In this document: one piece after another, positions 6,266-21,733 of the stretch
How positions within the stretch are numbered: the first letter of the stretch is position 1
Layout of the letters: every line of letters starts with the position of its first letter
Virus record (IMG/VR): IMGVR_UViG_3300010885_008521
Coordinates: 1 to 55,399 of that record
Reading direction: 5' to 3' (one strand)
Source: a virus
DNA: 55,399 bases
Made by a program: the position numbers and the translations under genes
Notes under the pieces: generated by a model
What the model was told of the DNA's origin: nothing
Database searches by the model: none
Seen by the model: only the letters and a program-made list of their open reading frames with translations

Positions 6266-7000
6266 ATGCAAGACTTATTAAAAGACATCGTAGCACACAC
6301 TAACAAACTTGGCTTTCTTAACATTGTTAAGATTACAGGAGAAGTTGACAAAACATTGATTGATTCAATGGCTGAAGACCGAAGCGTTATTATGTATGCG
6401 GAAACTACCAATCCATATCCACAACTAATTGGAACATTTGGTATGCCACAGTTGGAAAAACTACGCTACTTGGTAGAAGGCAAGGAATATCAGGAAGATG
6501 CAAAGATCGACTTAGTTACAGCCAATCGTAATGGAGCAAATGTTCCAGTTGGTTTACATTTTGAAAACAAAGACGGCGATTTTAAAAACGATTATCGTTT
6601 TATGAATAGCGATATCATTAACGAAAAACTTAAGACAGTTAAATTCCGCGGAGTTAATTGGCACGTTGAAGTTGAACCCACTGTTAATGCTGTACAGCGT
6701 TTTCAATTCCAAGCAGGTGCTAATACAGAGCATACAACATTCTTGGCTAAAACTGATAGTGACAAATTGTTGTTTACATTTGGTGACCAAAGTAGCCACG
6801 CAGGTGAATTTGTATTTTCCACGGGCGTCACTGGTAAATTGACTAAGGCTTGGACTTGGCCTGTAAATCCAGTATTGGCTATTCTAAAAATTGCAGATGC
6901 TAACAATGCTAAAATTAGTTTTAGTAATGAAGGTGCTATGCAAATTACTTTGGATAGTGGCATTGCTACCTACAAATATATTATTCCAGCACAAGCATAA
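6266..7000 (+). CDS. 45: Sliding clamp DNA polymerase accessory protein (gp45-like)
   Basis: 244 residues, slightly longer than T4 gp45 (about 228). The fold signature is not a short motif. Recognition rests on length, position directly after gene 43, and pattern: the N-terminal helix LLKDIVAHTNKLGFLNIVKI, a strand-rich middle, and an end ISFSNEGAMQITLDSGIATYKYIIP that is typical of gp45-type clamps. The protein forms a ring on DNA that tethers the polymerase. In T4 it is also the mobile activator of late transcription by gp55. The stop overlaps the next gene by one base (TAATG), so the DpdA-like gene is probably translated from the same message. Confidence 0.88.
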   Translation: MQDLLKDIVAHTNKLGFLNIVKITGEVDKTLIDSMAEDRSVIMYAETTNPYPQLIGTFGMPQLEKLRYLVEGKEYQEDAKIDLVTANRNGANVPVGLHFENKDGDFKNDYRFMNSDIINEKLKTVKFRGVNWHVEVEPTVNAVQRFQFQAGANTEHTTFLAKTDSDKLLFTFGDQSSHAGEFVFSTGVTGKLTKAWTWPVNPVLAILKIADANNAKISFSNEGAMQITLDSGIATYKYIIPAQA

Positions 7001-8568
7001 TGAAAAAGCCACCAGTTAATTTAACCCCATTACAGAAAGATTATTCTGTATACTTACCTGCTATTAGTACTTTTTATAGCACTTATGTGTCTAAACAACG
7101 GCTAGGCGAATATGTACCTAAGGATCGACTGCCTGCAGAATTTGATCGTGGCATTGAAGGTATGAATTTTCTTAATGCAGAAGAAGGGTATTTTACTTAT
7201 AAGTATGGGTTGTATTCAGCCGGTCACGCACAATTGGATCTTACCAAGAGTCTAACACAAGAATCAATGATTCAAGATAGAGATCGCAATAACACTTTGA
7301 TACTAGGCGACTCAGGCGGATTCCAAATTGGTAAAGGTGTTCTTAAATTTGACTGGTTAGACTTTGAAGGTCCTAATGCAAACAAAGTTCGTAAAAGTAT
7401 TTTAGAGTGGTTGGAAGTTACCGCTGACTGGAGTATGATGTTGGACGTTCCCACGTGGGCGTGTGACCATAATCATAGTCCTAAAACTGGACTAAAGACT
7501 TTTGAAGATTGTTTGGACAAAACAAAATTCAACAATGAGTATTTCCTAAAGAACCGTATGGGTCAGACCAAGTTCCTTAATGTGCTACAAGGTGGCGATT
7601 GGGAACGTGCTGAACAGTGGTATCAAGGTGTTAAAGAATTTAGCGATCCCGCAGTGTGGGGCGACAAAGCAGCCGAAGGGTGGGCAATGGGTGGCGCTAA
7701 TATGAGCATGATGGATGTCACACTCAAACGTCTTATGACTATGAGAGACGACGGAATGCTGGAGGGTAAGAACTGGATGCACTTTTTGGGCACTGCTCAA
7801 TTAGACTGGTCTTGCTATTTGACTTTAATTCAACGACAAATTAGGAAACATATTAATGAAGAAATTACCATCTCTTTTGATTGCGCCTCACCGTTTATCG
7901 CAACAGCACACGGACTTGTCTACACAAACCCACAGCACTCAACGAAACGTTGGAGTACTATTATGGAAAAAGCCCCAGACAACAAAGCACTTTCAGGATC
8001 GGACATTCCGTTCCCGTGGACGACTGAATTCGGAAGCCGCTTGACAATGGGAGACATTTGCTGGTACAAGCCAGGAATGTTGAATAAGATTGGTAAAGAG
8101 GGCAAAACTTCCTGGGATAGTTTTAGTTACGCATTAATGATGGGACATAATGTTAACAGTCATATTACAAGTGTACAACGTGCTAATCAATTAATGGATA
8201 TCGAAATTGCTAAGTCAAAAGGTAAAATTAATTGGCGTGCTTGGCGTGCTGTAAAATCTGGCGATAACAGTTTTGATCAATATAGCGATTGGGTTCCACG
8301 TAATATTTTGTATTTTGCTAACTTCATTGAAGATCTGTTCAATACAAAAACAAAGGCAGAAGCATTTGAAATGATTGAAGATGGTATTACATTTATTCGC
8401 GCATTAGAAGGAACACGTAGTCAAGATGGTATGGCACGTAATACATTCTTTAACTTATTTGATACTGAAGAAGTTGTGATAGATAAAAGTGTATCTGATG
8501 TATTCGCTATGCCCTTGTTAGATGAAGATAAACTTACTGATTTAGAAGATACATTAGGAGAAGAATAA
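7000..8568 (+). CDS. dpdA: DpdA-type DNA guanine transglycosylase (TGT superfamily)
   Basis: 522 residues with the two catalytic signatures of tRNA-guanine transglycosylases: GDSGGFQ with Asp104, and ISFDCASPF with Asp294, matching the TGT nucleophile motif FDC(x)xP. A substrate-pocket segment is also clear (LQGGDWERAEQW, then EGWAMGG). The TGT zinc site (CxCxxC plus His) is not seen after the nucleophile, and the length and extra C-terminal region differ from bacterial Tgt. Both are expected of DpdA, the enzyme family that exchanges guanine in DNA for 7-deazaguanines such as preQ0 or its derivatives, protecting phage DNA from restriction. A QueE-like gene and a QueD-like gene lie downstream in the same run. 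Which deazaguanine is inserted cannot be read here. It starts at the clamp stop and ends at the next start (TAATG at both ends). Confidence 0.85.
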   Translation: MKKPPVNLTPLQKDYSVYLPAISTFYSTYVSKQRLGEYVPKDRLPAEFDRGIEGMNFLNAEEGYFTYKYGLYSAGHAQLDLTKSLTQESMIQDRDRNNTLILGDSGGFQIGKGVLKFDWLDFEGPNANKVRKSILEWLEVTADWSMMLDVPTWACDHNHSPKTGLKTFEDCLDKTKFNNEYFLKNRMGQTKFLNVLQGGDWERAEQWYQGVKEFSDPAVWGDKAAEGWAMGGANMSMMDVTLKRLMTMRDDGMLEGKNWMHFLGTAQLDWSCYLTLIQRQIRKHINEEITISFDCASPFIATAHGLVYTNPQHSTKRWSTIMEKAPDNKALSGSDIPFPWTTEFGSRLTMGDICWYKPGMLNKIGKEGKTSWDSFSYALMMGHNVNSHITSVQRANQLMDIEIAKSKGKINWRAWRAVKSGDNSFDQYSDWVPRNILYFANFIEDLFNTKTKAEAFEMIEDGITFIRALEGTRSQDGMARNTFFNLFDTEEVVIDKSVSDVFAMPLLDEDKLTDLEDTLGEE

Positions 8569-8855
8569 TGGCAACTAGAAAAACAAAAACACTAACTGAA
8601 GTGGTTGAGAAACTGCCAGTTAAACGTAAGTCTAAGATTGAAAATCGTACAGAAGAATTGATTACTGAATTCGATCCAAGCGGAGTAGTAAAAGGCAGTC
8701 ATTTAACTGTTACTACATTTTCAGATGGTACTACTAAATTAGATTGGGATGATGAAGCATTATTACGTGATGTTCGTGCAGCGATTCTAAAATCAGAAAG
8801 TTTTCTTCCTGTAATAGAAACCAAACCAAAACGCAAAAAGAAAACAGAGGAATGA
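8568..8855 (+). CDS. Small charged protein of unknown function
   Basis: 95 residues. Basic segments at both ends (ATRKTKTLTE, KPKRKKKTEE) flank a middle with two strands and a helix (SHLTVTTFSDGTTKLDWDDE, then LLRDVRAAILKSE). No known motif is visible. It begins in the stop of the DpdA-like gene and overlaps the exonuclease gene by 4 bases, so it is translationally coupled with both. It may be an accessory subunit of the transglycosylase, by position only. Confidence 0.75.
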   Translation: MATRKTKTLTEVVEKLPVKRKSKIENRTEELITEFDPSGVVKGSHLTVTTFSDGTTKLDWDDEALLRDVRAAILKSESFLPVIETKPKRKKKTEE

Positions 8856-9286
8856 AAAGATTATTTTTAGATACAGAATTTAACGGGTTTGGTGGAAAAT
8901 TGATATCGTTAGCACTTGTTCCAGAAGATCCATCTATTCTCGAATTCTATCGAGAAATTGAAATGAAGGATCAACTGCACCCTTGGGTGAAGGAAAATGT
9001 TATTCCGCATTTGAATACAGTCCCTTGTTTAAATTCTCAGTTTCAAATTGACCTTGCAAACTTCTTGCATAGTGTAGGTGACTGCACTATTATTGCCGAC
9101 TGGCCAGATGACATTAGATATTTCTGTGAGTCACTAATCGTCGGCCCAGGTCAGATGATTAATATCAAATCTAAGATTAGTTTTGAATTAGATTTGCATA
9201 TTGATTATGATTCAGCAGTGCCACACAATGCCCTACACGATGCACGGGCAATTAGAGACACTTACTTAAAAAGATTCCAAGAATGA
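8852..9286 (+). CDS. DnaQ-like 3'-5' exonuclease (DEDDh type)
   Basis: 144 residues with the DEDDh exonuclease pattern: FLDTEFNGF (Asp7, Glu9) as Exo I, IIADWPDDIRYF as Exo II, and HNALHDARAIRDTYL as Exo III, supplying the catalytic His and last Asp. The protein is nearly the minimal exonuclease domain, so it probably acts alone or as a subunit. The substrate may be single-strand DNA, RNA ends or oligonucleotides. It overlaps the dehydrogenase gene by 4 bases. Similar stand-alone exonucleases are frequent in T4-like phages of aquatic bacteria. Confidence 0.85.
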   Translation: MKRLFLDTEFNGFGGKLISLALVPEDPSILEFYREIEMKDQLHPWVKENVIPHLNTVPCLNSQFQIDLANFLHSVGDCTIIADWPDDIRYFCESLIVGPGQMINIKSKISFELDLHIDYDSAVPHNALHDARAIRDTYLKRFQE

Positions 9287-10155
9287 AAAGTTTAATTGTT
9301 GGTATGGGAATAGGACAATTGTACCATTCCGTGTTTTCTAGCCTAGGTTATGATATTGATACAGTGGATGCAAATACTGAAAAGAATGCCACATACACAG
9401 ATGTTAGCGTAGTTACAGGTGAATATGACATCGCTGTAATTTGTACTCCAAATTTTACACACGAATCTATTGCAAGAGCGATTGCTGATAAATGTAAGAT
9501 TGTATTGATTGAAAAGCCAGGTGTTAAGGATAGTCAAAGTTGGTATCAACTGCATAAGGACTTTCCTGACACTCGATTTATGATGGTTAAAAATAATCAA
9601 TATCGAGATACAATTAAGCAATTTCAACTGTTGACAGATCAATCAAATACTGTTACAATTCGTTGGAATAATAAAAATCGTATTCCCAGTCCAGGTAGTT
9701 GGTTTACCAATAAAGAATTATCATTTGGCGGTGTTAGCAGAGACTTGCTGCCACATATGCTAAGTTATTACTGTAGACTAACTGACTTCAAATCTGGTAC
9801 TAAACAAGATGCAGTGGCCATTCAGAATCATTTATTGTCAGAAATAACCAGTACAGATTACGGAACAGTTAATCCCGAAGGGGTGTATGACGTGGATGAT
9901 TATTGTAAAATTGAATTTTTGCAAGGAAAAACTCGTTGGATTTTAACTGCAAATTGGAAAGATGATCTTGTAGATGATTCCAGTATTAGTTTTGATATGA
10001 AAAATAGTGCTGTTAGATTTGAACTAGGTCTATGTCCAGAAGAAGCATATAAAGAAATGGTAGAGACTGCTGTTAAAAACCTAAATAACAACGAGTTTTG
10101 GCTTAGTCAACTTGCACAAGACTTTTGGATACACAAACAAATTGAATCATTATGA
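9283..10155 (+). CDS. Gfo/Idh/MocA-family NAD(P)-dependent oxidoreductase
   Basis: 290 residues. The N-terminal Rossmann fold starts SLIVGMGIGQLYHSVFSSLG. The family segment AVICTPNFTHESIA follows, then IVLIEKPG, the EKP motif whose Lys is a catalytic residue. Further on, FGGVSRDLLPHMLSYY corresponds to the conserved D-x-x-x-H active-site segment. The family oxidises or reduces hydroxyls of sugars, sugar nucleotides or related compounds. The phage version is a little shorter than typical enzymes (about 330 or more), with a compact C-terminal domain. Next to an alcohol-dehydrogenase-like gene and near a glycosyltransferase it probably acts on a sugar, but the substrate is unknown. Overlaps on both sides are 4 bases. 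Confidence 0.8.
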   Translation: MKSLIVGMGIGQLYHSVFSSLGYDIDTVDANTEKNATYTDVSVVTGEYDIAVICTPNFTHESIARAIADKCKIVLIEKPGVKDSQSWYQLHKDFPDTRFMMVKNNQYRDTIKQFQLLTDQSNTVTIRWNNKNRIPSPGSWFTNKELSFGGVSRDLLPHMLSYYCRLTDFKSGTKQDAVAIQNHLLSEITSTDYGTVNPEGVYDVDDYCKIEFLQGKTRWILTANWKDDLVDDSSISFDMKNSAVRFELGLCPEEAYKEMVETAVKNLNNNEFWLSQLAQDFWIHKQIESL

Positions 10156-11039
10156 ATAGAGTATTGCAAACAACAGGTACTGGCGAATTCTTAGAAACTG
10201 AGTATACATTGCCTCCATTAGCAGATGATGAAATCTGTGTGCGTAGTGTTATGACTGGCGTTTGTCGTAGTGACATTGATATGATGAAAGGGGACTTTGG
10301 TCCACTACCACTTCATATGCAAGGACACGAAGGACTCGGTCAAGTTACTGCAATTGGTGCAAATATTAATCACGTTAAAATAGGTGATTATGTTGCCACT
10401 CGTGGTGAACCTGCTTATGCTGATAGTTATAATGTACGTGATAAAGAGTTCGTAGTTGTTCCAGAAGATCACCCACGTTATATTTTAGAGCCAGTTGCGT
10501 GTGGCATTAATGTAGTTAAACAAGCTGATGAAGAACTTGCAAAACGCAAAGGTAAGTTATTAATTCTCGGAAGTGGGTTTTTAGCGTGGGTAGCGTACAA
10601 CACACTAAAGCTAGATTGTTATAATTTTGAAATTGATGTACTCGGAAGTAGTAATCAAGATCTATGGAGTGACAAACTATTAATGGCTCCTAGCGACAGT
10701 TATGATATTGTAATTGATCTTTCTGGAAAATACGAATTAGGTACAGAGATAAACCTAAATAATAATGCATTAATTATTGATGCAGTGGGCAAAGCAGTTA
10801 GTCACAAAGAAGCACAGCAACAACTTTGGAAAGCTGTTACTACTATTAAGCCAAGTCCACGAACTAAGAAGTTTATCAAATGTATGGAGTACGCAAAGTT
10901 TTGGATAGAAAGGGGTCATTTAAATGTTGACAACTTTTGGACTCAAGCGTATAATCGTAATACAGAGTGGCAACAAGCGTTTGCGGATGGTGCGGATCGT
11001 CCAAGCGGTTACAGCCGGGGTTACATTAAATGGGACTAA
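10152..11039 (+). CDS. Medium-chain (zinc-type) alcohol dehydrogenase-like protein
   Basis: 295 residues. The N-terminal GroES-like domain carries catalytic zinc ligands in GVCRSDIDMMKGDFG (Cys) and MQGHEGLGQV (His-Glu), and the third ligand segment ILEPVACGINV (Cys). A NAD(P) loop LILGSGFLAWVAYNTLK follows, with Gly-x-Gly but a weak third Gly. The four-Cys structural zinc loop is absent, and the protein is about 50 residues shorter than usual. The active site therefore looks intact but in a trimmed frame. Resembles sugar-alcohol or inositol-type dehydrogenases of the MDR family. Pairing with the Gfo/Idh/MocA gene suggests a two-step oxidation/reduction of one substrate. Confidence 0.78.
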   Translation: MNRVLQTTGTGEFLETEYTLPPLADDEICVRSVMTGVCRSDIDMMKGDFGPLPLHMQGHEGLGQVTAIGANINHVKIGDYVATRGEPAYADSYNVRDKEFVVVPEDHPRYILEPVACGINVVKQADEELAKRKGKLLILGSGFLAWVAYNTLKLDCYNFEIDVLGSSNQDLWSDKLLMAPSDSYDIVIDLSGKYELGTEINLNNNALIIDAVGKAVSHKEAQQQLWKAVTTIKPSPRTKKFIKCMEYAKFWIERGHLNVDNFWTQAYNRNTEWQQAFADGADRPSGYSRGYIKWD

Positions 11040-11560
11040 ACACTGAACAACGACAAAACGTCGTTTATTTTACAGGTTATGAAGTTGAACATACAGTTTG
11101 TCACGGTATGAAAACTTTATTTGTTGTAGGAACTCCTCCGCTAGAGGAAATTTTGCAACAAGCAAATCGAGATATTGAAATTAAACACATTTACTTTGGA
11201 ACAAGTCAAAGTTTTAATCCAGCACATATTTTGGAATCTAATTGTTATGATTCATACAAACCGTGGGATGAAGTTATCATGGGCTGTTTGAATACAGACT
11301 ATTGGGTCACATTAGACTTTGATATCAAACACATCGAGGGTGTCTTAGAAGGCGGATGGAATGAATATAATAAGTTTGTGCCAATGATTAGTTGCAAACT
11401 TCCATATATTAGACAACTTAACTATAATGCAACACTTAAATTAGACGACCTCACTTGGGGTAAAACTAATTCTGGTGTTTGGACACATCAATTACACGAT
11501 CTAATGAGTAAGGACAAATATACTTACTGGGATCAATATACACAAGATACTACACTATGA
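11030..11560 (+). CDS. Conserved phage protein of unknown function
   Basis: 176 residues, soluble, aromatic-rich. Visible pieces are NVVYFTGYEVEHTVCHGMKT, then IKHIYFGTSQSFNP and DYWVTLDFDIKHIEGVLEGG. No standard catalytic motif is recognised. His and Asp residues in the middle (HIYFG, DFDIKH) could bind metal. I have the impression of homologues in other T4-like aquatic phages, without a known function. It overlaps the dehydrogenase by 10 bases and the MutH-like gene by 4, so it belongs to the same operon and may act in the same modification pathway. Confidence 0.75.
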   Translation: MGLNTEQRQNVVYFTGYEVEHTVCHGMKTLFVVGTPPLEEILQQANRDIEIKHIYFGTSQSFNPAHILESNCYDSYKPWDEVIMGCLNTDYWVTLDFDIKHIEGVLEGGWNEYNKFVPMISCKLPYIRQLNYNATLKLDDLTWGKTNSGVWTHQLHDLMSKDKYTYWDQYTQDTTL

Positions 11561-12141
11561 TTACGCCTACGGAAACACTGCTCCTTAATATTATCAAGCA
11601 CCATTTGCTTGGCAGACAATTGCCAAGCAATCTTGGAGGCGATTCTGGAAGAGCTTGTGAAGATTTATTAGAAGATAAAATTGGCATTTCAATTAACAGA
11701 GGTGCTGGATGCGATATTCCTGAAATTGGTTGGGAAGTTAAATGTCGAAAAGGCACAGCAACTAGTGCACAAACAGTTTCAGCAATGCGTCCAGAAGATA
11801 TTATTTCAACTCCATATCCGCTTTCGCCAATTTTCAAAAAAATTCAAAAACAATTAAGATTTACAACAAATGATAATGATGTTATTATTGCTATAGACTT
11901 ATGTGATTTTGATCAGCCACAAATTCAAGAACTGATTCAAGAAGCATATGAACACGCAAGAATTTTGATTAAAAATAATCCTAGTCTGGAATATACACCA
12001 TACGAGGGCTACTGGGGTTATTTTGAAAAAACGAAAAAAAATCGCCTAGAGCTTGATTTTAGACTAGCTGATGGGCAAATGGAAAAACTACTAGCAATGA
12101 CTAATTCAACCTTTCAAAATTTATTTGCATATGATAATTAA
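11557..12141 (+). CDS. MutH/Sau3AI-like PD-(D/E)XK endonuclease
   Basis: 194 residues. The region from about residue 27 reads GGDSGRACEDLLEDKIG, then GCDIPEIGWEVKCRKG. That gives Glu in the first helix, Asp-x8-Glu-x-Lys, and the Gly-x-x-x-Glu-x-x-Leu pattern found in MutH and Sau3AI (MutH: GQLLE then DFPELGVELKT). A helix with KKIQKQLRF follows, where MutH has KLKRVLWIP. These match the fold and metal-binding residues of Mg-dependent DNA endonucleases. MutH and Sau3AI cut at GATC; the specificity here is unknown, and GATC is common in this window, so it is not avoided. It lies between DNA-modification-type genes, which suggests it could destroy unmodified host DNA. Family placement is by eye. 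Confidence 0.65.
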   Translation: MITPTETLLLNIIKHHLLGRQLPSNLGGDSGRACEDLLEDKIGISINRGAGCDIPEIGWEVKCRKGTATSAQTVSAMRPEDIISTPYPLSPIFKKIQKQLRFTTNDNDVIIAIDLCDFDQPQIQELIQEAYEHARILIKNNPSLEYTPYEGYWGYFEKTKKNRLELDFRLADGQMEKLLAMTNSTFQNLFAYDN

Positions 12142-12508
12142 ACAAGATATTCGACCATCAGAAATGACCTTTATTAAAGTTCGTACAGAATTTGAAGGAT
12201 TTCATTTTTATCCCAATGCAAGTGCTATTGATCCAAGAATTGAATTTTTGGAAAATCTGCATCGTCATATATTTAAAATAGAAGTAAAAATTTCAGTAAC
12301 TCATTTAGATCGTGAACTAGAATTTTTTCTAGTTAAATGGGCTTTGCAAGATTTCATTAAGTCGGGTAATCAGGATCATAAAAGTTGTGAAATGATTGCT
12401 ACAGACATTTTGAAAAATCATCTTTTACCTAAATATGGTGAAAGATATTATGAAGTGACAGTATCTGAGGATGGCGAGTCTGATGGTATTGTTGAATATA
12501 AACCTTAA
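12131..12508 (+). CDS. QueD/PTPS-like T-fold protein without catalytic Cys
   Basis: 125 residues from the ATG at 12131; a TTG two codons upstream is less likely. The pattern follows 6-carboxytetrahydropterin synthase (QueD)/PTPS. An N-terminal strand leads into EGFHFYPNA with one His, then ENLHRHIFKIEVKIS, where QueD has LHGH, giving the two other zinc His. Further on are SCEMIATDIL, where QueD has TSE, and YEVTVSEDGESDGIVEY, where QueD has the substrate-binding Glu. The nucleophilic Cys four residues before LHxH is replaced by Leu, and the LDHxxLN segment is missing. It may be an altered lyase or a binding protein rather than a true QueD. It overlaps the MutH-like gene by 11 bases. Confidence 0.6.
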   Translation: MIIKQDIRPSEMTFIKVRTEFEGFHFYPNASAIDPRIEFLENLHRHIFKIEVKISVTHLDRELEFFLVKWALQDFIKSGNQDHKSCEMIATDILKNHLLPKYGERYYEVTVSEDGESDGIVEYKP

Positions 12509-12535
12509 ATATTTTGTTAAACAACAGGAAACTAT

Positions 12536-12757
12536 ATGGCACAGCCAAATTACATTCAAAAAACTCTTAAAATGAAACCAGAAGTCGAGCGTATTTTCGA
12601 CGACTTGGATCGTTGGTTGGACTATTGCCGATTCAACTTAATCAAATTTGATGAGAAGGATATGTATCGTAGTCCAGACTACCGTCGCTTCCAACAGGAG
12701 CAAGAGTATCTTGAGCGTAAAGCACGTCGGGAATCGCGAGCACGTCAAGAGGCATAA
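12536..12757 (+). CDS. Small helical charged protein
   Basis: 73 residues, preceded by ACAGGAAAC. The sequence is two helices: KMKPEVERIFDDLDRWLDYC, then YRRFQQEQEYLERKARRESR, which is very charged and probably coiled-coil. A conserved-looking core, RFNLIKFDEKDMYRSPDY, lies between. I recognise this as a common short open frame in T4-like aquatic phages without a known role. It abuts the glycosyltransferase gene (stop and start adjacent), so it may be its partner. Confidence 0.75.
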   Translation: MAQPNYIQKTLKMKPEVERIFDDLDRWLDYCRFNLIKFDEKDMYRSPDYRRFQQEQEYLERKARRESRARQEA

Positions 12758-13834
12758 ATGGCAAATATCTTTCTAGTTGACCTAGAAAGTGTTAGCACTA
12801 GGTACACGGGACAATGGAAGTCTCATGTACCTAATCTACTTTCAAAGGCAGGACACAATGTTCGAGTTATTTCAGGACCTGGAGATATTCCTCCAGCAAC
12901 TACGCCAGGAGCTTTTCTCAACTTTGGTGGCACCAATATATACAAGGCTGCTCAAGTTGAACAGATTAGCAGACTTTTTTGCGAGGGATCCATTAATGCT
13001 GGGGATCACTTTTTGTTTACTGATGCGTGGCATCCAGGAATTGTAAATTTAAAGTATATGAGTGAACTGTTGCAGATTCCTGTAACCATTCACGCATTGT
13101 GGCACGCCGGCAGTTATGATCCACAAGACTTTTTGGGACGGCTTGTTGGCAATAAACCTTGGGTTAGACATGCTGAGAAAAGTTTCTTTCATGCTATTGA
13201 TCATAACTACTTTGCTACCGAATTCCATATTGACATGTTCTTTAAGAACTTGTTTGGAGTAGACGGTCCGTCTGAACACTTTCGTGCAATGGGCGTTGAC
13301 AAAGTTGTACTCACAGGCTGGCCAATGGAGTATATGATTGATACATTGGAGAACTATAATACTAATCCCAAGCGTGATCTGATTTTGTTTCCACATCGTA
13401 TTGCACCAGAAAAGCAAGTTGAGATTTTTTGTGATTTGGCCAAACAGTTACCTCAATATGAATTTATTGTTTGTCAAGATACACAATTGGACAAACATGA
13501 ATATCACAAGTTGTTGGGTCGTGCCAAGATTGTATTCAGTGCAAATTTGCAGGAAACACTTGGCATCAGTTGTTATGAAGGTGCATTAGTAGATGCCATT
13601 CCTATGGTACCAGATCGTTTGAGTTATACAGAAATGTATTATGACGGATTTAAATATCCTAGTGAATGGACGGAAAGTTGGGATAGTTATCTAATTCATA
13701 GACAAGAATTGTGTCATCACATTATTGTCACAATGACACACTATGAAAAGAGGCTACCGCAATTACATAAACAAGCACAAGATTTGACAAAACATTTCTT
13801 TAGTGCCACTGAACTATTAAAAAATATTAAATGA
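12758..13834 (+). CDS. GT-B-fold glycosyltransferase (GT4-like)
   Basis: 358 residues. The C-terminal half has the nucleotide-sugar-binding pattern of retaining GT-B enzymes: ILFPHRIAPEKQVEIFCDLA (about 209-228), then SANLQETLGISCYEGALVDA with the E-x7-E pair at Glu266 and Glu274. The N-terminal acceptor domain has a His-rich stretch (TIHALWHAGSYDP). No signal peptide or membrane segment is seen, so it works in the cytoplasm. In T4 and relatives, such enzymes sugar-coat modified DNA bases or virion proteins. Its place in a run with DpdA, QueE-like, dehydrogenase and oxygenase genes makes DNA or a DNA-base precursor a reasonable target, but this is an inference. It overlaps the next gene by 4 bases. 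Confidence 0.82.
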   Translation: MANIFLVDLESVSTRYTGQWKSHVPNLLSKAGHNVRVISGPGDIPPATTPGAFLNFGGTNIYKAAQVEQISRLFCEGSINAGDHFLFTDAWHPGIVNLKYMSELLQIPVTIHALWHAGSYDPQDFLGRLVGNKPWVRHAEKSFFHAIDHNYFATEFHIDMFFKNLFGVDGPSEHFRAMGVDKVVLTGWPMEYMIDTLENYNTNPKRDLILFPHRIAPEKQVEIFCDLAKQLPQYEFIVCQDTQLDKHEYHKLLGRAKIVFSANLQETLGISCYEGALVDAIPMVPDRLSYTEMYYDGFKYPSEWTESWDSYLIHRQELCHHIIVTMTHYEKRLPQLHKQAQDLTKHFFSATELLKNIK

Positions 13835-14598
13835 ACAAATTTATCAATGATCAAAACTGGGGTGAGTTGGCGGCCCAATTTATAAACGCTAAACCATTTA
13901 ACCATATTATCATTGATAATTTTTGGAAAGATGATATTGCAAAACAATTAGTTGCAGATTTTCCAAGTTACGAAAGTACTGTGTGGACTACACATTATCA
14001 AAATCCTATTGAAGATAAGAAAGCGTGTAATCATTGGGATCGATTTCCAGCAGCTACTTATCAAGCATTTACATATTTAAATAGTCAAGAATTTCTTAAT
14101 ATTATTGAACCAGTTGTTGGTGTTTATAATATTAAAACTGACATAGGTCTTCACGGGGGCGGCTGGCACGCTCATCACAAAGGCGGCAAGTTAAATGTAC
14201 ATCTCGACTATAGTATTCATCCTAAACTAAAACTAGAACGTCATTATAATTTGATTGTTTATATGACACCCGATTGGAAGCCTGAATGGAAAGGTGGGTT
14301 GGAACTATGGAGCCATAATGAGATAACCAATCAGCCTTTAGAATGTGTTTATACTGTAGAAAATAAATTTAATCGTGCAGTTCTATTTGATACCACCCAA
14401 CATTCTTGGCACGGGCTACCAGATGACTTGACCTGTCCCGATAACGTATATCGTAGAAGTATGGCAGTATATTATTTGACTGATCCTGCCAAAGGTGTAG
14501 ATACTCGCCCACGTGCATTATTTGCACCAACGCAAGATCAATCAAACGATCCGGCAGTATTAGAACTTATTAAACAACGAAGTAATTTAACAAAATGA
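13831..14598 (+). CDS. 2-oxoglutarate/Fe(II)-dependent dioxygenase
   Basis: 255 residues with the double-stranded beta-helix oxygenase signature. HxD is seen in KLNVHLDYSIHP (His124, Asp126), the distal His in FDTTQHSWHGLP (most likely His194), and the 2-oxoglutarate-binding Arg in YRRSMAVYYL (Arg208 or 209). The layout resembles prolyl 4-hydroxylase-type phage enzymes. These hydroxylate proteins, bases or small molecules using O2, Fe(II) and 2-oxoglutarate. The gene sits between a glycosyltransferase and a cupin gene with 4-base overlaps. That suggests hydroxylation of the same substrate that is glycosylated, though a virion-protein target is equally possible. Confidence 0.85.
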   Translation: MNKFINDQNWGELAAQFINAKPFNHIIIDNFWKDDIAKQLVADFPSYESTVWTTHYQNPIEDKKACNHWDRFPAATYQAFTYLNSQEFLNIIEPVVGVYNIKTDIGLHGGGWHAHHKGGKLNVHLDYSIHPKLKLERHYNLIVYMTPDWKPEWKGGLELWSHNEITNQPLECVYTVENKFNRAVLFDTTQHSWHGLPDDLTCPDNVYRRSMAVYYLTDPAKGVDTRPRALFAPTQDQSNDPAVLELIKQRSNLTK

Positions 14599-15056
14599 AC
14601 TTTTTTTTAAACTTTCTAGATAAAATTGGCCGTAAACGTATCATTATGGACCGACAAAGTAATCAGCCTTTGTTGACTCGTTATTACTTGTTCTTAAAAG
14701 ATCGAGATCGTTTTCCATTTAATGTATTTTTACATAAATTCCATACAGGCGATCCTGGCGATGTTCACGATCATCCTTGGTCCTATGCTACATTTATTTT
14801 AGCAGGTGGATATTATGAATGGATCCCAAAGTTTAATAGCAAAAAAGAAATGATTGGCGAAATTCGTCATTGGCGTGGCCCTGGACATTTTCGTATTTGT
14901 AAACCAACAAGTTATCATCGTATTGAATTAAAAGAAGGTGTTACTCCTTGGACATTGTTTATGCCGGGACCAAAAAAGCGGGAATGGGGATTTCTAGTTA
15001 ATAATAACTGGATTCATAACGAATCATATTTGAAGGCAAAGGCTGGTCGTGAATAA
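14595..15056 (+). CDS. Cupin-type metal-binding protein
   Basis: 153 residues. FHTGDPGDVHDHPWSYATFI carries the first cupin motif (G-D-x-H-D-H, two His), then AGGYYEW. Motif 2 is represented by RICKPTSYHRIEL with the last His. This gives a three-His metal site on a small beta-barrel. Substrate unknown; cupins include isomerases, epimerases and oxygenases of sugars or small acids. Its neighbours are an oxygenase and a HIT-family gene, with a 4-base and an 8-base overlap. The same GDxHDHPW form is common in uncharacterised phage proteins. Confidence 0.75.
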   Translation: MNFFLNFLDKIGRKRIIMDRQSNQPLLTRYYLFLKDRDRFPFNVFLHKFHTGDPGDVHDHPWSYATFILAGGYYEWIPKFNSKKEMIGEIRHWRGPGHFRICKPTSYHRIELKEGVTPWTLFMPGPKKREWGFLVNNNWIHNESYLKAKAGRE

Positions 15057-15444
15057 GATTTTTGATGGTCCAGATCATATTGAATGGGCCAATGTTCCTT
15101 GGACTGATGTATATAGGGACGATTTTCATGTAATAGTATACAAGGACAAATATCCTGTTACTAAAGGTCATTTATTGTTTGTGCCTAAATATAATACAAT
15201 AGGAGTATTAAAAGATGCGTTTGAAGATGCTATTAGCGAAGGTAAAAGAATGGTGGAAGCCGGAGAATGGGACGGTTACAATATTGGCATTAATCAAGGC
15301 CAAGCTGCTGGTCAAACTATCAACTGGCCTCATATCCATCTTATACCACGTAAGTTGGGTGACGTCGAAGATCCAATCGGCGGCATTAGGAATACAATAC
15401 CGGGCAAAGGCAACTATAAGTCTCCGAACTACAGAAAAGATTAA
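15049..15444 (+). CDS. HIT-family nucleotide hydrolase/transferase
   Basis: 131 residues. The N-terminal half has DDFHVIVYKDKYPVTKGHLL, typical for the HIT fold. The C-terminal half has GINQGQAAGQTINWPHIHLI, corresponding to the Q-T-x-x-H-x-H-x-H motif. The catalytic middle His and the last His are kept, while the first His is replaced by Trp. HIT proteins bind nucleoside phosphates and cleave alpha-phosphate bonds such as Ap4A, adenylylated or guanylylated compounds. The Trp change may alter substrate but should leave the nucleophile. The reading frame ends at 15444, 37 bases before the next plausible start. Confidence 0.82.
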   Translation: MNKIFDGPDHIEWANVPWTDVYRDDFHVIVYKDKYPVTKGHLLFVPKYNTIGVLKDAFEDAISEGKRMVEAGEWDGYNIGINQGQAAGQTINWPHIHLIPRKLGDVEDPIGGIRNTIPGKGNYKSPNYRKD

Positions 15445-15481
15445 ACCTGTTAAGTTTGATTGGGCAAGCGATACACAACTA

Positions 15482-15889
15482 ATGGGTTTTGGTGCACAAT
15501 CAGTTGCAGCATATAATATTACTTCTGGATCTTATAACACTGCTATAGGATATCAAGCAGGACGATTTGTTCCAAACAACAGTATACAATTCAATTCTGC
15601 AAAGGATAACGCGGTGTTGACTATTACAGCAGATGGTGATGTTATTTGGAATGGTAAGCCAAGTGAAGCCTCAAAGATTTTAGTAAACAATTTTCAAATG
15701 GCAGTAGAAGATGCCAAGGGTGTTACTAAAGCCGCTAAACGTAGATACTATGCATTGGCTTGTAGAAATTTATTAAAGGCCGCCGAGCAAATGGAGTCAG
15801 AAGAATTCCTTGCGTTTCTTAATAGAGAAGTGTATAATAGAGAACATAGAGTCATTATGGATTCATTAAAAGGTGAATATGGACAGTAA
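15482..15889 (+). CDS. Small protein with tail-fibre-type GSYNTAIGYQAG repeat
   Basis: 135 residues from the ATG at 15482. The same frame is open back to 15215 inside the HIT gene, and no good ribosome-binding site is seen before 15482, so the start is uncertain. The N-terminal part, AAYNITSGSYNTAIGYQAG, is a single unit of the beta-roll repeat used in trimeric adhesins and phage fibres. The rest, VLTITADGDVIWNGKPSEAS followed by a helical region with AKRRYYALACRNLLKAAEQM, looks like a separate small domain I associate with other phage proteins. The combination suggests a remnant of a fibre gene or a small structural/chaperone protein in an otherwise enzymatic operon. Confidence 0.55.
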   Translation: MGFGAQSVAAYNITSGSYNTAIGYQAGRFVPNNSIQFNSAKDNAVLTITADGDVIWNGKPSEASKILVNNFQMAVEDAKGVTKAAKRRYYALACRNLLKAAEQMESEEFLAFLNREVYNREHRVIMDSLKGEYGQ

Positions 15890-16157
15890 AACAAAAGAAG
15901 TAATGGACATTCTACAAGAAGAATGTGCAGAGGTTATTCAAGCAGTTAGCAAAATTAGTCGATTTGGTATGGACAATCATAAGTTTGGCGAAGTACAAAC
16001 TAATTTAGAACATCTAGAAGAAGAACTGGGCGATGTACTGGCAATGATTGATATCTTATTGGAACAAGGTATTGTGAAATCTAAAAACTTAGACGAAGCA
16101 AAACAAAATAAAAAATACAAACTTAAGAAATGGTCTAACATTTATGAGCAAAATTAA
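15879..16157 (+). CDS. MazG-like nucleotide pyrophosphohydrolase
   Basis: 92 residues from the ATG at 15879; a GTG two codons upstream is an alternative. The helical metal-binding pattern is EECAEVIQAVSKISRFG, then EEELGDVLAMIDIL, i.e. E-E-x-x-E followed by E-x-x-D. This is the signature of MazG and related all-alpha NTP pyrophosphatases. Such enzymes hydrolyse (d)NTPs or modified nucleotides to monophosphates. The phage type is thought to clean up or adjust nucleotide pools. It overlaps both neighbours and precedes the QueE-like gene, so it could also act on deazaguanine-pathway nucleotides, which is speculative. Confidence 0.82.
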   Translation: MDSKTKEVMDILQEECAEVIQAVSKISRFGMDNHKFGEVQTNLEHLEEELGDVLAMIDILLEQGIVKSKNLDEAKQNKKYKLKKWSNIYEQN

Positions 16158-17007
16158 AATTGCAGAACTTTTCTACTCTATACAAGGAGAGGGAAAATAT
16201 ATGGGAGTGCCCAGTGTGTTTCTACGCACATTTGGATGTAACTTTACCTGTCAAGGTTTTGGTATGCCGCGTGGCGAATTAAGCGACGAAGCAGACAAAC
16301 TTGCATTACTACAAACATCACATGAAACTATAGCGTTTAAAAAATACGAAGACCTGCCTTTGGTCAGTACAGGTTGCGATAGTTATGCTAGTTGGCATCC
16401 TAGTTTTAAAGACCTTAGTCCTATGCTCACTAGTGATGCTATTGCCGATCGTATTATGGAAATTCTTCCGCAAGATCATTGGAAAGATGAACACCTTGTT
16501 ATCACAGGTGGCGAACCGTTGCTAGGTTGGCAAAAAGCATATCCAGATTTGTTAAACAATCCCAAAATGTCAGGTTTAAAAGAAATTACTTTTGAAACAA
16601 ATGGCACAATGCGTTTAACAAAAGACTTTAAAGAATTCTTACGCAGTTGGACAGATATAGATCCTAAAAGAGAAATTACATTTAGTGTAAGTGCTAAACT
16701 ACCGTGTTCAGGCGAACCATGGGATGATGCTATTAAACCAGAACGTGTTTGTGAATATGAAGAATACGGAACTGCATATTTGAAGTTTGTTATTGCTACT
16801 GAACAAGACTTTGCTGATGCTGAATGTGCTATTGGTGCATATCGTCAAGCAGGATTTAAAGGTTACGTTTACCTAATGCCAGTAGGTGGAGTTGAAAGTG
16901 TGTATGTAATGAATAATAAGAATGTAGCATTGTTGGCAATGAAACACGGACTTAGATACAGTGATCGATTGCAAGTGCCGTTGTTTAAAAATGAGTGGGG
17001 CACTTGA
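16144..17007 (+). CDS. queE: QueE-like 7-carboxy-7-deazaguanine synthase (radical SAM)
   Basis: 287 residues. It starts ELFYSIQGEGKYMGVPSVFL, the QueE hallmark. GCNFTC follows, with Cys32 and Cys36. The third cluster Cys appears only at residue 78 in STGCDSYASW, the equivalent of the usual WCDTxYAW segment. About 40 residues are therefore inserted inside the iron-sulfur loop (CX3C-X41-C instead of CX3CX2C). ITGGEPLL (SAM-binding GGE) and TFETNGTM are intact. QueE converts carboxytetrahydropterin to 7-carboxy-7-deazaguanine, precursor of preQ0, which DpdA can place in DNA. QueC and GTP cyclohydrolase are not in the window and would come from the host or elsewhere in the phage. It overlaps the MazG-like gene by 14 bases. 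Confidence 0.88.
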   Translation: MSKIKIAELFYSIQGEGKYMGVPSVFLRTFGCNFTCQGFGMPRGELSDEADKLALLQTSHETIAFKKYEDLPLVSTGCDSYASWHPSFKDLSPMLTSDAIADRIMEILPQDHWKDEHLVITGGEPLLGWQKAYPDLLNNPKMSGLKEITFETNGTMRLTKDFKEFLRSWTDIDPKREITFSVSAKLPCSGEPWDDAIKPERVCEYEEYGTAYLKFVIATEQDFADAECAIGAYRQAGFKGYVYLMPVGGVESVYVMNNKNVALLAMKHGLRYSDRLQVPLFKNEWGT

Positions 17008-17054
17008 TGGGAATATTAGATCAATCTCTATTGATACAGCCTAAAGGAAACAAA

Positions 17055-17480
17055 ATGAAAAACTTTATAAAAAAAATATTGGGTATTGATAAAATTGAAG
17101 AAGACGCAAAAAATGCCAGAGAAACAGCAGACTTCTTTGCACAGAGATATAAAGATGCTGAAGCCAAACTTAATGAAGTTTTAAAAACTCCTAAAGAAAT
17201 TGCTACAGAGAAAAAAGAACCCTGGGTTGCAGTATTAGATACTCACGTTAATAAAGATAACATTCGAAACGGATTTTTTGAACTTGACTGGAATGAATAC
17301 TTTGTGCTACAATTACGTACAGCAGGCTACACTGGTGATACAGACGAAGAAGTTGTAGACAAGTGGTTTAGTGAACTATGCCGCAATTTAGGCGGAGAAG
17401 AAGGTATTGATATGAGCCGTAGAGGCGCAGGCTATATCAATGTAAACAATTTAGGCGACGGTAGAACGGAAATCAGTTAA
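17055..17480 (+). CDS. Conserved phage protein with N-terminal coiled coil
   Basis: 141 residues from the ATG at 17055, chosen because AAAGGAAAC precedes it; a longer frame from 16995 would overlap the QueE-like gene. Residues 1-50 are basic, then helical (KNFIKKILGIDKIEEDAKNA, QRYKDAEAKLNEVLK), probably a coiled coil. The conserved-looking part is EPWVAVLDTHVNKDNIRNGF, then ELDWNEYFVLQLRTAGYTG. Homologues with this segment are common in T4-like aquatic phages. Function unknown. Confidence 0.78.
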   Translation: MKNFIKKILGIDKIEEDAKNARETADFFAQRYKDAEAKLNEVLKTPKEIATEKKEPWVAVLDTHVNKDNIRNGFFELDWNEYFVLQLRTAGYTGDTDEEVVDKWFSELCRNLGGEEGIDMSRRGAGYINVNNLGDGRTEIS

Positions 17481-17481
17481 T

Positions 17482-18096
17482 ATGAATAGATTAGAAATAG
17501 ATAGTACTGATTACGATATATTATATCGTGCTGCGGCATCGATTAAAGATATTAGTGGTACGGTATGCGAGATTGGTACTAGATTAGGCGGTAGTACACA
17601 ATATATTATCGAAGGACTACTTTCTGTTGATGATTTAAATAGAAACATAATTTGTTTAGATCCATATGGGAATATAGATTTTTATGATAATGAAAATAAC
17701 TTAGCAAAATCAGATTATACAAATGATATGCGTAATACTGCGGTATCAAGTTTATATGAATATGCAAAAGGTAAAGCTGTTAATCTAGTATTTTTATGTT
17801 TAGAAGATACTGAATTTTTTAATAGATTTCAAGACGGTGTGCCATTTTATCAAGAATTTAAAACAGTTGTTAATCAATACAGTCTTGTATTCTTCGACGG
17901 CCCACACCAAAGTAATGCCGTATTTGATGAAGTTCAATTTTTTTATCCTAGATCAGTAATTGGAACTAAATTTGTATTTGATGACACAAACAAATACAAC
18001 CATCAAATTGTACACGATGACTTAATTAAAAATAATTTTGAACTTGTGGAAATTGGTTCAAATAATGTTAAAATCTGTTACGTTAAAATAAAGTAA
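17482..18096 (+). CDS. Class I SAM-dependent methyltransferase-like protein
   Basis: 204 residues. The segment GTVCEIGTRLGGSTQYIIEG resembles methyltransferase motif I (E-x-G-x-x-x-G-x-S), and IICLDPYGNID the acidic motif II. SLVFFDGPHQSNAVFDEVQF matches the D-G-x-H segment of the Methyltransf_24 / cephalosporin-hydroxylase-like group. The usual targets of this group are small molecules or sugars. No DNA methylase motif (DPPY or PC) is present. It follows the previous gene by one base and ends the accessory run before RNase H. Catalysis is likely but the substrate is unknown. Confidence 0.7.
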   Translation: MNRLEIDSTDYDILYRAAASIKDISGTVCEIGTRLGGSTQYIIEGLLSVDDLNRNIICLDPYGNIDFYDNENNLAKSDYTNDMRNTAVSSLYEYAKGKAVNLVFLCLEDTEFFNRFQDGVPFYQEFKTVVNQYSLVFFDGPHQSNAVFDEVQFFYPRSVIGTKFVFDDTNKYNHQIVHDDLIKNNFELVEIGSNNVKICYVKIK

Positions 18097-18100
18097 ATTA

Positions 18101-19090
18101 ATGAATAAAACATATATCATTGTTGATACAGCAAATACATTCTTTAGAGCACGTCACGTTATTCGTGGTGATCTAAATGACAAGATTGGTATGAGTATTC
18201 AAACTGTATTAGGCAGTGTAAGAAAAGCGTGGCGCGATTTCAAAGGCGATCACGTGGTGTTCTGTTTAGAGGGAAGAAGCTGGCGCAAAGACTATTACGC
18301 ACCATATAAGGCACAACGTGCCGCTGGCCGGGCTGCACATAGCCCAAAAGAAGCAGAAGAAGAACGAGTGTTTTGGGAAACATTTGATCAGTTTAAAGAT
18401 TTCATTACAGAAAAAACTAATACAACTGTACTACAACATCCGCAACTTGAAGCAGATGATTTGATTGCAGGGTTTATTCAATCTCATCCCGATGACAATC
18501 ATGTTATCATCTCCACAGATGGCGATTTTGCACAACTGATTGCACCAAACGTAAGTCAATATAATGGCATAATGGAAGTAACTGTAAAGCATACCGGTTA
18601 TTATGATGCCAAAGGCAAGTATGTTATTGACAAGAAAACTAAATTGCCAAAGAGTCCCCCTGAACCTGAATGGCAACTATTTGAAAAATGTATGCGCGGC
18701 GATACAAGCGATAATATCTTTAGTGCTTATCCAGGTGTGCGTGAAAAAGGTACAAAGAATAAAGTTGGTTTGAGAGAAGCCTTTGCTGATCGTAATTCAA
18801 AAGGCTACAATTGGAACAATATGATGTTGCAGCGTTGGTCTGACCACGAAGGTGTCGAACATCGTGTGTTAGATGATTACTCCCGTAATGTGATATTGTG
18901 CGACTTGACTGCACAACCAGATGATATTAAAGTATTAATTAAAGAAACTATTAATACGGCTATGACAGCAGAGAAGAATATTTCACAGGTTGGCATTAGA
19001 TTGCTAAAATTCTGTGCTGAATTTGATTTACAAAAAGTAAGTGAACAAGTTCAAAGTTATAGCGAACCATTAAATGCGAGGTATGTATAA
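18101..19090 (+). CDS. rnh: FEN-type ribonuclease H / 5'-3' exonuclease (T4 Rnh-like)
   Basis: 329 residues with the flap-nuclease acidic motifs: YIIVDTANTFFRARHV (first Asp), PQLEADDLIAGFI (Glu-Ala-Asp-Asp), IISTDGDFAQLI (two Asp) and RGDTSDNIF (Asp cluster before the helix-hairpin-helix). The arch region KDYYAPYKAQRAAGR is basic. The length is close to the T4 enzyme (305). It removes RNA primers and 5' flaps from lagging-strand fragments during phage replication. The start is 4 nt after the preceding stop, and its stop overlaps the next gene by one base. Confidence 0.92.
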   Translation: MNKTYIIVDTANTFFRARHVIRGDLNDKIGMSIQTVLGSVRKAWRDFKGDHVVFCLEGRSWRKDYYAPYKAQRAAGRAAHSPKEAEEERVFWETFDQFKDFITEKTNTTVLQHPQLEADDLIAGFIQSHPDDNHVIISTDGDFAQLIAPNVSQYNGIMEVTVKHTGYYDAKGKYVIDKKTKLPKSPPEPEWQLFEKCMRGDTSDNIFSAYPGVREKGTKNKVGLREAFADRNSKGYNWNNMMLQRWSDHEGVEHRVLDDYSRNVILCDLTAQPDDIKVLIKETINTAMTAEKNISQVGIRLLKFCAEFDLQKVSEQVQSYSEPLNARYV

Positions 19091-21657: not shown

Positions 21658-21661
21658 AATT

Positions 21662-21681
21662 GGGGCTTAGGCCCCTTTTTT
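21662..21681 (+). terminator. Rho-independent terminator after the MoxR gene
   Basis: GGGGC, loop TTAG, GCCCC, then six T. It lies 4 nt after the MoxR stop and directly before the next promoter, so the MoxR and vWA genes are separate transcription units, with possible read-through. Confidence 0.85.
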
Positions 21682-21682
21682 A

Positions 21683-21711
21683 TTGACAAGTTAAATAAAA
21701 TAGTGTATAAT
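21683..21711 (+). promoter_or_regulatory. Perfect sigma-70 promoter TTGACA-N17-TATAAT before the vWA gene
   Basis: TTGACA at 21683-21688 and TATAAT at 21706-21711, spacer 17 nt. It begins within a few bases of the T-tract of the preceding terminator. AACAGGAG follows before the ATG at 21734. Confidence 0.88.
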
Positions 21712-21733
21712 ATAATTTTAAACAGGAGTAGTT

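Follow-up and report, generated by a model that had tools for sequence, protein, structure and literature searches.

The operon at positions 7000-18096 of the IMG/VR virus record IMGVR_UViG_3300010885_008521 (55,399 bases, from a large aquatic phage, here called the window) encodes a DpdA-type DNA guanine transglycosylase together with a linked glycosyltransferase, and we propose, with a probability of about 0.58, that this locus makes a sugar-decorated 7-deazaguanine and installs it in the phage's own DNA. Gene families, conserved motifs, gene order and tight linkage are directly seen for the module at the core of this operon. The first-pass annotation of the window had described the region as eighteen co-directed genes resembling a DNA hypermodification pathway, and open reading frame (ORF) calling did return 18 ORFs, all on the plus strand. 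Conserved gene order and linkage support a 7-deazaguanine DNA-modification locus that is centred on DpdA and has a glycosyltransferase and redox enzymes linked to it; the broader suggestion that redox, oxygenase, sugar and methyl enzymes could build on the base is retained for the linked glycosyltransferase and redox pair, but not for the 2-oxoglutarate (2OG)-Fe(II) oxygenase and the methyltransferase-like protein MT24, which like the RNase H-like protein and g194 are local.

The comparison of gene order covered 80 IMG/VR loci found by dpdA plus the window, and 36 of these span the complete interval between dpdA and the 5'-3' exonuclease gene at the 3' flank (18101-19090); counted among these intervals are the window, L004, which is nearly identical to it and here called its twin, and several near-duplicates. 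Six genes were found in the same order in 36/36 intervals, namely dpdA (7000-8568, 522 residues), g176 (11030-11560, encoding an orphan alpha/beta protein of 176 residues), a QueD-like gene of the PTPS fold (PTPS-like, 12125-12508), the gene of a retaining GT-B/GT4-type glycosyltransferase (12758-13834), a QueE-type radical SAM gene (16144-17007) and g161 (16995-17480), a conserved neighbour matching phrog_13349 (4e-17), which is annotated as virion structural. Because this order is kept throughout, the ORFs of the operon are not due to chance. The cupin-type gene (14595-15056), a probable accessory member, was present in 33 intervals, g73 (12536-12757), a small conserved gene between the PTPS-like and glycosyltransferase genes, in 31, the gene of a MazG-like pyrophosphohydrolase (15873-16157), a frequent neighbour, in 28 and g95 in 20. 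A Gfo/Idh/MocA-type dehydrogenase gene (9283-10155) and an MDR gene of the zinc alcohol dehydrogenase type (10152-11039), the first and second genes of a cassette of which g176 is the third, occurred in 7/36 intervals and never apart, and a UDP-glucose-dehydrogenase-like gene (UGD) and FolE occurred as a pair in 6/36. The window-type 2OG gene was found in three intervals, and g194, MT24 and the RNase H-like gene in two each, the window and its twin.

Linkage was tested by seeking dpdA near the IMG/VR relatives of several operon genes, with loci of at least 15 kb as a subset. The transglycosylase gene was found near relatives of MDR in 73/80 loci (36/36 of the subset), of the cupin in 46/80 (38/40), of MT24 in 4/12 (4/5, some of them the window's own twins) and of the 2OG oxygenase in 2/11, one of these being the window's twin (1/6). 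The last gene thus behaves as independent cargo, so the test is able to discriminate. Asking whether genes occur independently of dpdA therefore removed the 2OG oxygenase from the module, and the glycosyltransferase, MDR and the cupin stayed; MT24, the RNase H-like gene and g194 were rejected as strain-specific. Other 2OG-oxygenase-like proteins were recognised by eye in variable slots of L005, L012, L015 and L075.

The linkage of the glycosyltransferase was followed with the enzyme of phage ACP17 as query, which returned at least 492 relatives in IMG/VR. In the 80 best of these, whose identity to the query is 35-44% if ACP17 itself is set aside, dpdA was present at 73 loci, the PTPS-like gene at 74, QueE at 60 and g176 at 44; for those of at least 15 kb (n=51, including ACP17) the counts were 51, 50, 46 and 31, and the seven loci lacking dpdA were all short (5.7-13.4 kb). 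Both genes lay on the same strand in 73/73 cases, at a median distance of 2.7 kb, and when the glycosyltransferases were clustered at 70% identity dpdA was found in 26 of the 27 clusters, the exception being Phosso, in which dpdA lies elsewhere in the genome. An alternative would be that the glycosyltransferase and dehydrogenases work on glycans of the virion or the host surface, with dpdA no more than an operon neighbour; GT4, UGD, Gfo/Idh and MDR enzymes are frequent in glycan synthesis, and g161 carries a virion annotation. However, linkage and strand are kept in several phage lineages and with both types of DpdA, and the same test does set apart the 2OG gene as independent cargo (2/11). 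We consider a surface-glycan role very unlikely, and the virion glycosylation that the first-pass annotation had offered as an alternative is, for this glycosyltransferase, disfavoured by the dpdA linkage (73/80; 51/51 of at least 15 kb).

Among sequenced phages, the glycosyltransferase gene adjoins dpdA in PA5oct and Paride, lies between a KVP40-type DpdA and the PTPS-like-QueE genes in ACP17, stands in X1 next to a KVP40-type DpdA that carries the annotation 'queuine tRNA-ribosyltransferase' and lies beside the PTPS-like and DpdA genes in BUCT-ZZ01, which has a distant version of the module; in Phosso it is found near FolE and QueE. A clear DpdA was present in 16/20 INPHARED records with the glycosyltransferase and a partial match (1.8e-6) in 2/20, two further records not having been checked individually. 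The partial matches belong to PhiXhv-12 and Ep032, where they lie elsewhere in each genome; the glycosyltransferase copies of these two phages are distant (24%) and sit in a region common to both (93-97% DNA identity). In PhiXhv-12 (L089), positions 7669-10903 hold, in a row, a Gat-QueC-like fusion, a GlcNAc-malate deacetylase (by annotation) and the distant glycosyltransferase relative, which possibly serve a related, QueC-using sugar modification. Bacterial genomes yielded five glycosyltransferase loci, all in metagenome-assembled genomes (MAGs); two of them (L453 and L455) have the order dpdA-g176-PTPS-like-glycosyltransferase-QueE and are probably viral contigs binned into MAGs, and two others (L454 and L457) are short. 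Scans with the glycosyltransferase and with the PTPS-like protein each gave at least close to 600 matches, the module being widely distributed among large aquatic phages.

The window DpdA had no match in Pfam, PHROGs or NCBIfam and was recognised by tblastn, motifs and profile comparison. By tblastn it was found in 13 INPHARED records, comprising 11 PA5oct/Paride-like Pseudomonas phages (41% identity), Vibrio phage 2.275 (32%) and Sinorhizobium phage Phosso (31%). The residues D104, S105, G106, G107 and Q109 (DSGG-Q) and a second aspartate, D294, were invariant in a 17-row alignment, aspartates having catalytic roles in the TGT superfamily. Comparison with E. coli Tgt by hhalign gave E=0.0016 but a probability of 16%, with DSGGFQ, QG, GG and FDC..P in register, and comparison with the profile of the KVP40-type transglycosylases, the second DpdA type, found in ACP17, X1 and BUCT-ZZ01, gave E=6e-7 and a probability of 92%. 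Profile comparison with the window DpdA did not detect the DpdA of phage 9g, and a sequence search of solved structures found nothing for DpdA, the glycosyltransferase or the PTPS-like protein. We take the window protein as a member of a DpdA subfamily common to PA5oct/Paride, Vibrio phage 2.275 and Phosso. Within 15 kb after dpdA, Vibrio phage 2.275 carries genes annotated as 7-cyano-7-deazaguanine reductase (QueF), transporter, queuosine biosynthesis protein, FolE and QueD family, and its queuosine biosynthesis gene matches the QueC model at 1.7e-51.

The PTPS-like gene had been read as QueD-like at first pass; we reject an identity as QueD because the catalytic cysteine is absent: 0/82 members of the family have a cysteine among the six residues before HxHxF. 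The protein is instead a PTPS-fold paralogue, in which an SCE motif is present in 78/82 members and the three zinc-type histidines are invariant in 12 rows, and its family aligned by hhalign to canonical phage QueD at E=4e-5 with a probability of 69%. In canonical phage QueD, represented by five aligned proteins, C28 (5/5), H32, D71-H72 and E139 are conserved. PTPS genes over the Pfam cut-off were present elsewhere in 14/30 and 20/28 records, including all named phages of both sets, which overlap by two named phages. In INPHARED the paralogue itself was found in 21 records, which belong to ten lineages.

For the glycosyltransferase, the AlphaFold2 model (pLDDT 78.6) is a GT-B protein, with BshA as best Foldseek match (5e-9) and, in the structural comparison of the model (VIA), Z scores of 21-23 (up to 22.8) against sucrose-phosphate synthase, BshA and MshA. 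E266 and E274, which form the EX7E motif of GT4 enzymes, were invariant in 24 rows. The protein thus resembles BshA, MshA and the tetrahydrobiopterin glucosyltransferases in its GT-B fold and EX7E motif, but differs from them in its genetic context and shares 9-14% identity with them in structural alignments. A likeness to the queuosine mannosyltransferase QTMAN, suggested by a motif, was not supported, as there was no Pfam match of that kind and no QTMAN entry among the structural matches listed for the glycosyltransferase. The cyanobacterial tetrahydrobiopterin glucosyltransferase glycosylates a pterin, and one might suppose that the phage enzyme does the same, so that FolE and the PTPS-like protein would supply a pteridine glycoside and not DNA. 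The co-occurrence of FolE, a PTPS-fold protein and a GT4 enzyme would fit this, the structural matches include tetrahydrobiopterin glucosyltransferases (5zes, Z 19.0; 9v0l, Z 19.1), and one Flavobacterium MAG locus has the PTPS-like protein and the glycosyltransferase with no dpdA detected. Yet the scores of other GT4 enzymes are a little higher (Z 21-23), the PTPS-like protein is without the catalytic cysteine, and the usual partner is DpdA; of the explanations considered, we give this one the least credence.

The QueE-type enzyme keeps its radical SAM cysteines (C32, C36 and C78 invariant in 13 rows), with 41 residues between the second and third, a spacing that departs from the compact CX3CX2C and CX14CX2C patterns. 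The five NCBIfam QueE models listed for this protein stayed under their cut-offs, and the PHROG QueE family covers nearly its full length (phrog_2076, 3.9e-50). The long stretch between the second and third cysteines is also present in PA5oct and X1, and is not found in ACP17 or L052. In L052 a canonical QueE takes the place of the window-type enzyme, so that QueE activity is seemingly what selection keeps. QueE was detected in 13/13 named records searched, including all ten lineages with the PTPS-like protein. A full QueC, judged by the SGGxDS and CxxCxxC motifs as given in the QueC family paper (PMC13329287), was found only in Vibrio phage 2.275, 9g and PhiXhv-12 and in none of the PTPS-like records; there was no QueC match in PA5oct, Phosso, ACP17, BUCT-ZZ01, RHph_I1_18, Ahp1, Bakedbeans or MA9V-3, and the matches in X1 and D479 each lack one of the two motifs. 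The lack of a full QueC in named phages with the module points to 7-carboxy-7-deazaguanine (CDG) as precursor.

The cassette genes are kept together at a distance from dpdA as well. In PA5oct the order Gfo/Idh-MDR-g176 is conserved about 28 kb from dpdA, with identities of 33% (the Gfo/Idh counterpart being gp123), 37% and 43%, and the same order is found in a second large clade, in which dpdA is only about 38% identical. In 80 MDR loci, Gfo/Idh was present in 78 and g176 in 79. Among INPHARED records g176 occurs in 11, all PA5oct-like and all with this DpdA, and it shares 27% identity with gp122 of ACP17. The AlphaFold2 model of g176 (pLDDT 78) had B. subtilis QueE as its top two of 1000 structural matches, with Z scores of 6.4 and 6.0 that are below the level the tool regards as meaningful; Foldseek gave no match at 0.001 and hhalign to QueE a probability of 0.6%. 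At most, g176 may possibly be a base-binding protein derived from a degenerate QueE-like fold. Relatives of g194 (35-36% identity) adjoin g176 in four MDR-type loci (L150, L151, L153 and L154), and the sequence of g194 resembles what we take to be a PD-(D/E)XK nuclease core; if g194 is a nuclease, unmodified DNA could be its target within a DNA-modification locus.

In the pathway that we propose, FolE and canonical QueD, from phage genes elsewhere or from the host, would make CDG together with QueE, and DpdA would swap guanine in DNA for CDG or a derivative, to which the retaining GT4 glycosyltransferase would add a sugar, most likely after insertion. The cysteine-less PTPS-like protein and g176 may act on or hold the CDG-derived base, replacing the QueC step, and the Gfo/Idh-MDR pair (in relatives also the UGD gene) and the cupin may modify either the sugar or the side chain of the base. 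We infer from sequence what the glycosyltransferase acts on, which roles the PTPS-like protein, g176 and the dehydrogenases play, and what the final structure and its chemistry are. The scheme in its full form, in which a glycosylated 7-deazaguanine derives from CDG without QueC, is installed by DpdA, receives its sugar from the GT4 enzyme and has that sugar changed by a swappable Gfo/Idh-MDR-g176 or UGD cassette, is tentative and stands at slightly below even odds.

Several observations weigh against a sugar-decorated base. In five of the ten PTPS-like lineages (RHph_I1_18, Ahp1_CNU-2021, Bakedbeans, D479 and MA9V-3) the glycosyltransferase was not found, nor was either of the two DpdA types searched for; in all five QueE is present and an annotated FolE is nearby. 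Even among IMG/VR loci found by the PTPS-like protein, the glycosyltransferase is present in 66/80 (36/39 of at least 15 kb, the exceptions being L381, L419 and L445) and dpdA in 62/80 (34/39). Of 50 IMG/VR contigs, most of them fragments, six encode a divergent member of PF06508 in which SGGxDS and CxxCxxC are both present, so that some relatives may have a QueC-like step. The window glycosyltransferase is under the Pfam cut-off for Glycos_transf_1, and GT4 enzymes accept many small molecules. The Flavobacterium MAG locus (L456, 16.7 kb, glycosyltransferase 29%) has the order PTPS-like-glycosyltransferase-QueD-QueE and no dpdA by two profiles. Finally, the linkage counts were contrasted with other operon genes and not with random loci, and linkage inside one phage clade partly reflects shared ancestry.

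The five lineages show that the PTPS-like protein is not a strict partner of DpdA, and their QueE and FolE indicate that it belongs to a wider CDG-type pathway and not to this module alone. In cultured Rhizobium, Aeromonas, Vibrio, Vibrio and Chryseobacterium phages (L092, L093, L094, L096 and L097) the cysteine-less PTPS-like gene accompanies FolE and QueE, whereas a full QueC and either of the two DpdA types searched for were not found. The six divergent QueC-like genes in relatives weaken the absence of QueC as a strict rule, and CDG is hence the probable usual branch point and not an invariable one. These data could also be read as a conventional 7-deazaguanine phage, whose DNA would carry dCDG, plain 7-deazaguanine or a known derivative, with the PTPS-like protein modifying CDG and the glycosyltransferase acting elsewhere. 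The CDG decarboxylase DpdL, which Cui 2023 is said to have described, is a possible model for such a PTPS-like protein. The presence of DpdA and QueE and the absence of canonical QueC agree with a base that derives from CDG and bears no sugar, and the PTPS-like protein, FolE and QueE do occur without the glycosyltransferase in the five named phages, as the PTPS-like gene does in the three IMG/VR loci that reach 15 kb (L381, L419 and L445). What this reading does not account for is that dpdA lies near the glycosyltransferase in 51/51 loci of at least 15 kb (from the best 80 of at least 492) and that the glycosyltransferase is linked to two DpdA types, that of PA5oct and that of ACP17, X1 and BUCT-ZZ01. 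We regard a conventional base as unlikely and retain the sugar-decorated 7-deazaguanine as our interpretation.

The operon is tightly packed, with mostly 1-17 base overlaps at the junctions and, where genes do not overlap, a gap of 27 bases (12508/12536), an exact join (12757/12758) and a gap of one base (17480/17482). The enzyme families named at first pass were confirmed by Pfam or PHROG matches, except for DpdA, which required other methods, and a true QueD. The Pfam matches were Gfo/Idh/MocA (PF01408, 4.7e-7), ADH_N of the MDR protein (PF08240, 2.4e-11), 2OG-FeII_Oxy_3 (2.7e-13), HIT (PF01230, 1.5e-10), MazG (PF03819, 5.4e-7) and Methyltransf_24 (2.1e-7); the matches of PTPS (0.032, marginal) and of the glycosyltransferase (0.0052, weak) fell short of the Pfam cut-off, and the cupin was taken as such from phrog_4786 (5.3e-34, cysteine dioxygenase). 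Two small local genes, g95 (95 residues) and the RNase H-like gene (phrog_2259), occupy 8568-9286, g194 (194 residues, no library match) lies at 11557-12141 between g176 and the PTPS-like gene, and the 2OG oxygenase and MT24 genes lie at 13831-14598 and 17482-18096, all on the plus strand. The HIT gene (15049-15444) is occasional, being present in 6/80 loci (L004-L083), and the first 230 bases of the ORF at 15215-15889 lie within it; a match in L007 starts at the equivalent place, but over the conserved HIT frame, and the true start of this ORF is therefore uncertain. The 5' flank is a phrog_12062 gene (6266-7000), of unknown function in PHROGs, which shares 33% identity with a Phosso gene annotated as sliding clamp and is thus clamp-like. 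The intervals of L006, L059 and L060 hold a sulphate-transporter-like gene (F32). In L012 and L019 a gene that by eye resembles IMPDH/GMP-reductase (F45) stands between the cupin and QueE genes and could alter guanine nucleotide supply. Outside the operon, the window encodes by eye an ATPase-like and then a VWA-like protein at 20578-22996, resembling a MoxR-VWA pair, and, on the minus strand at 27744-40589, one ORF of 4281 residues among tail-like genes.

In phages 9g, CAjan and nt-1, DpdA is accompanied by FolE, QueD, QueE, QueC and amidotransferases, and Mycobacterium phage Bipper, which lacks only QueC, is named as a possible CDG user in the main text of Hutinet 2019 (PMC6884629), where 'glycosyl' and 'ACP17' do not occur. 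The window module resembles the 9g, CAjan and nt-1 systems in its DpdA-type transglycosylase and QueE, in the FolE and QueD of relatives and in the restriction evasion to be expected, but differs in lacking a full QueC in named phages and in the added GT4 enzyme, cysteine-less PTPS paralogue, g176 and Gfo/Idh-MDR pair. According to PMC12028318, the que clusters of Schizotequatrovirus share the FolE, QueD, QueE and DpdA core, and dPreQ1 was identified by mass spectrometry in one phage; unlike the module, they have QueC, and their glycosyltransferase belongs to an exchanged island with lipid A genes outside the que cluster. Menderavirus Ps15 is likewise described, in PMC9025141, as having FolE and QueE, but also QueC and an inositol-1-phosphate synthase ORF that by ORF number lies between FolE and QueC. 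The link to inositol-phosphate synthase suggested by that paper was not found here, as none was over the cut-off in 28 records searched and a single match was sub-threshold. As in T4-type DNA glucosylation (PMC13216743), a sugar would be put on a modified phage DNA base, but base and handle are different.

The deazaguanine bases described from phage DNA carry small groups at position 7 in the available text of Hutinet 2019 (PMC6884629) and PMC12028318. A deazaguanine-linked glycosyltransferase is not reported in the available portions of PMC13216743, PMC12028318, PMC13390438 and PMC11990801, which does not establish its absence from print, and a glycosylated deazaguanine is not reported in those of Hutinet 2019, of the jumbo-phage review or of the papers on the QueC family, carboxymethylcytosine, T4 glucosyltransferases, Paride, MIJ3, PA5oct, Acidovorax, Ps15, vibrio phages, Durham phages and BASEL, with Cui 2023 outside this comparison. 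The accessible text of the Paride and PA5oct papers contains no deaza(guanine) or queuosine, and that of the MIJ3 paper no queuosine or QueE. A review of jumbo phages notes predicted deazaguanine incorporation in some of them and groups MIJ3 with phages that show unusual features, of which hypermodified DNA is one and several others are named.

The module is present in the cultured phages PA5oct, Phosso, ACP17, X1 and BUCT-ZZ01. Cui 2023 reportedly describes further deazaguanine derivatives, DpdA subfamilies and the proteins DpdL, DpdM and DpdN, and is said to include CDG-derived bases made without QueC; to our knowledge, glycosylated deazaguanine is not listed there. Conditional on that work, a sugar-decorated deazaguanine in phage DNA seems previously undescribed. 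The finding suggests roles for several families annotated as hypothetical, and the Paride/PA5oct group is studied for killing dormant or clinical Pseudomonas. If our interpretation is true, deazaguanine bearing a sugar would represent a novel class of hypermodification, which would affect restriction, CRISPR and Type IV defences as well as the sequencing of native phage DNA.

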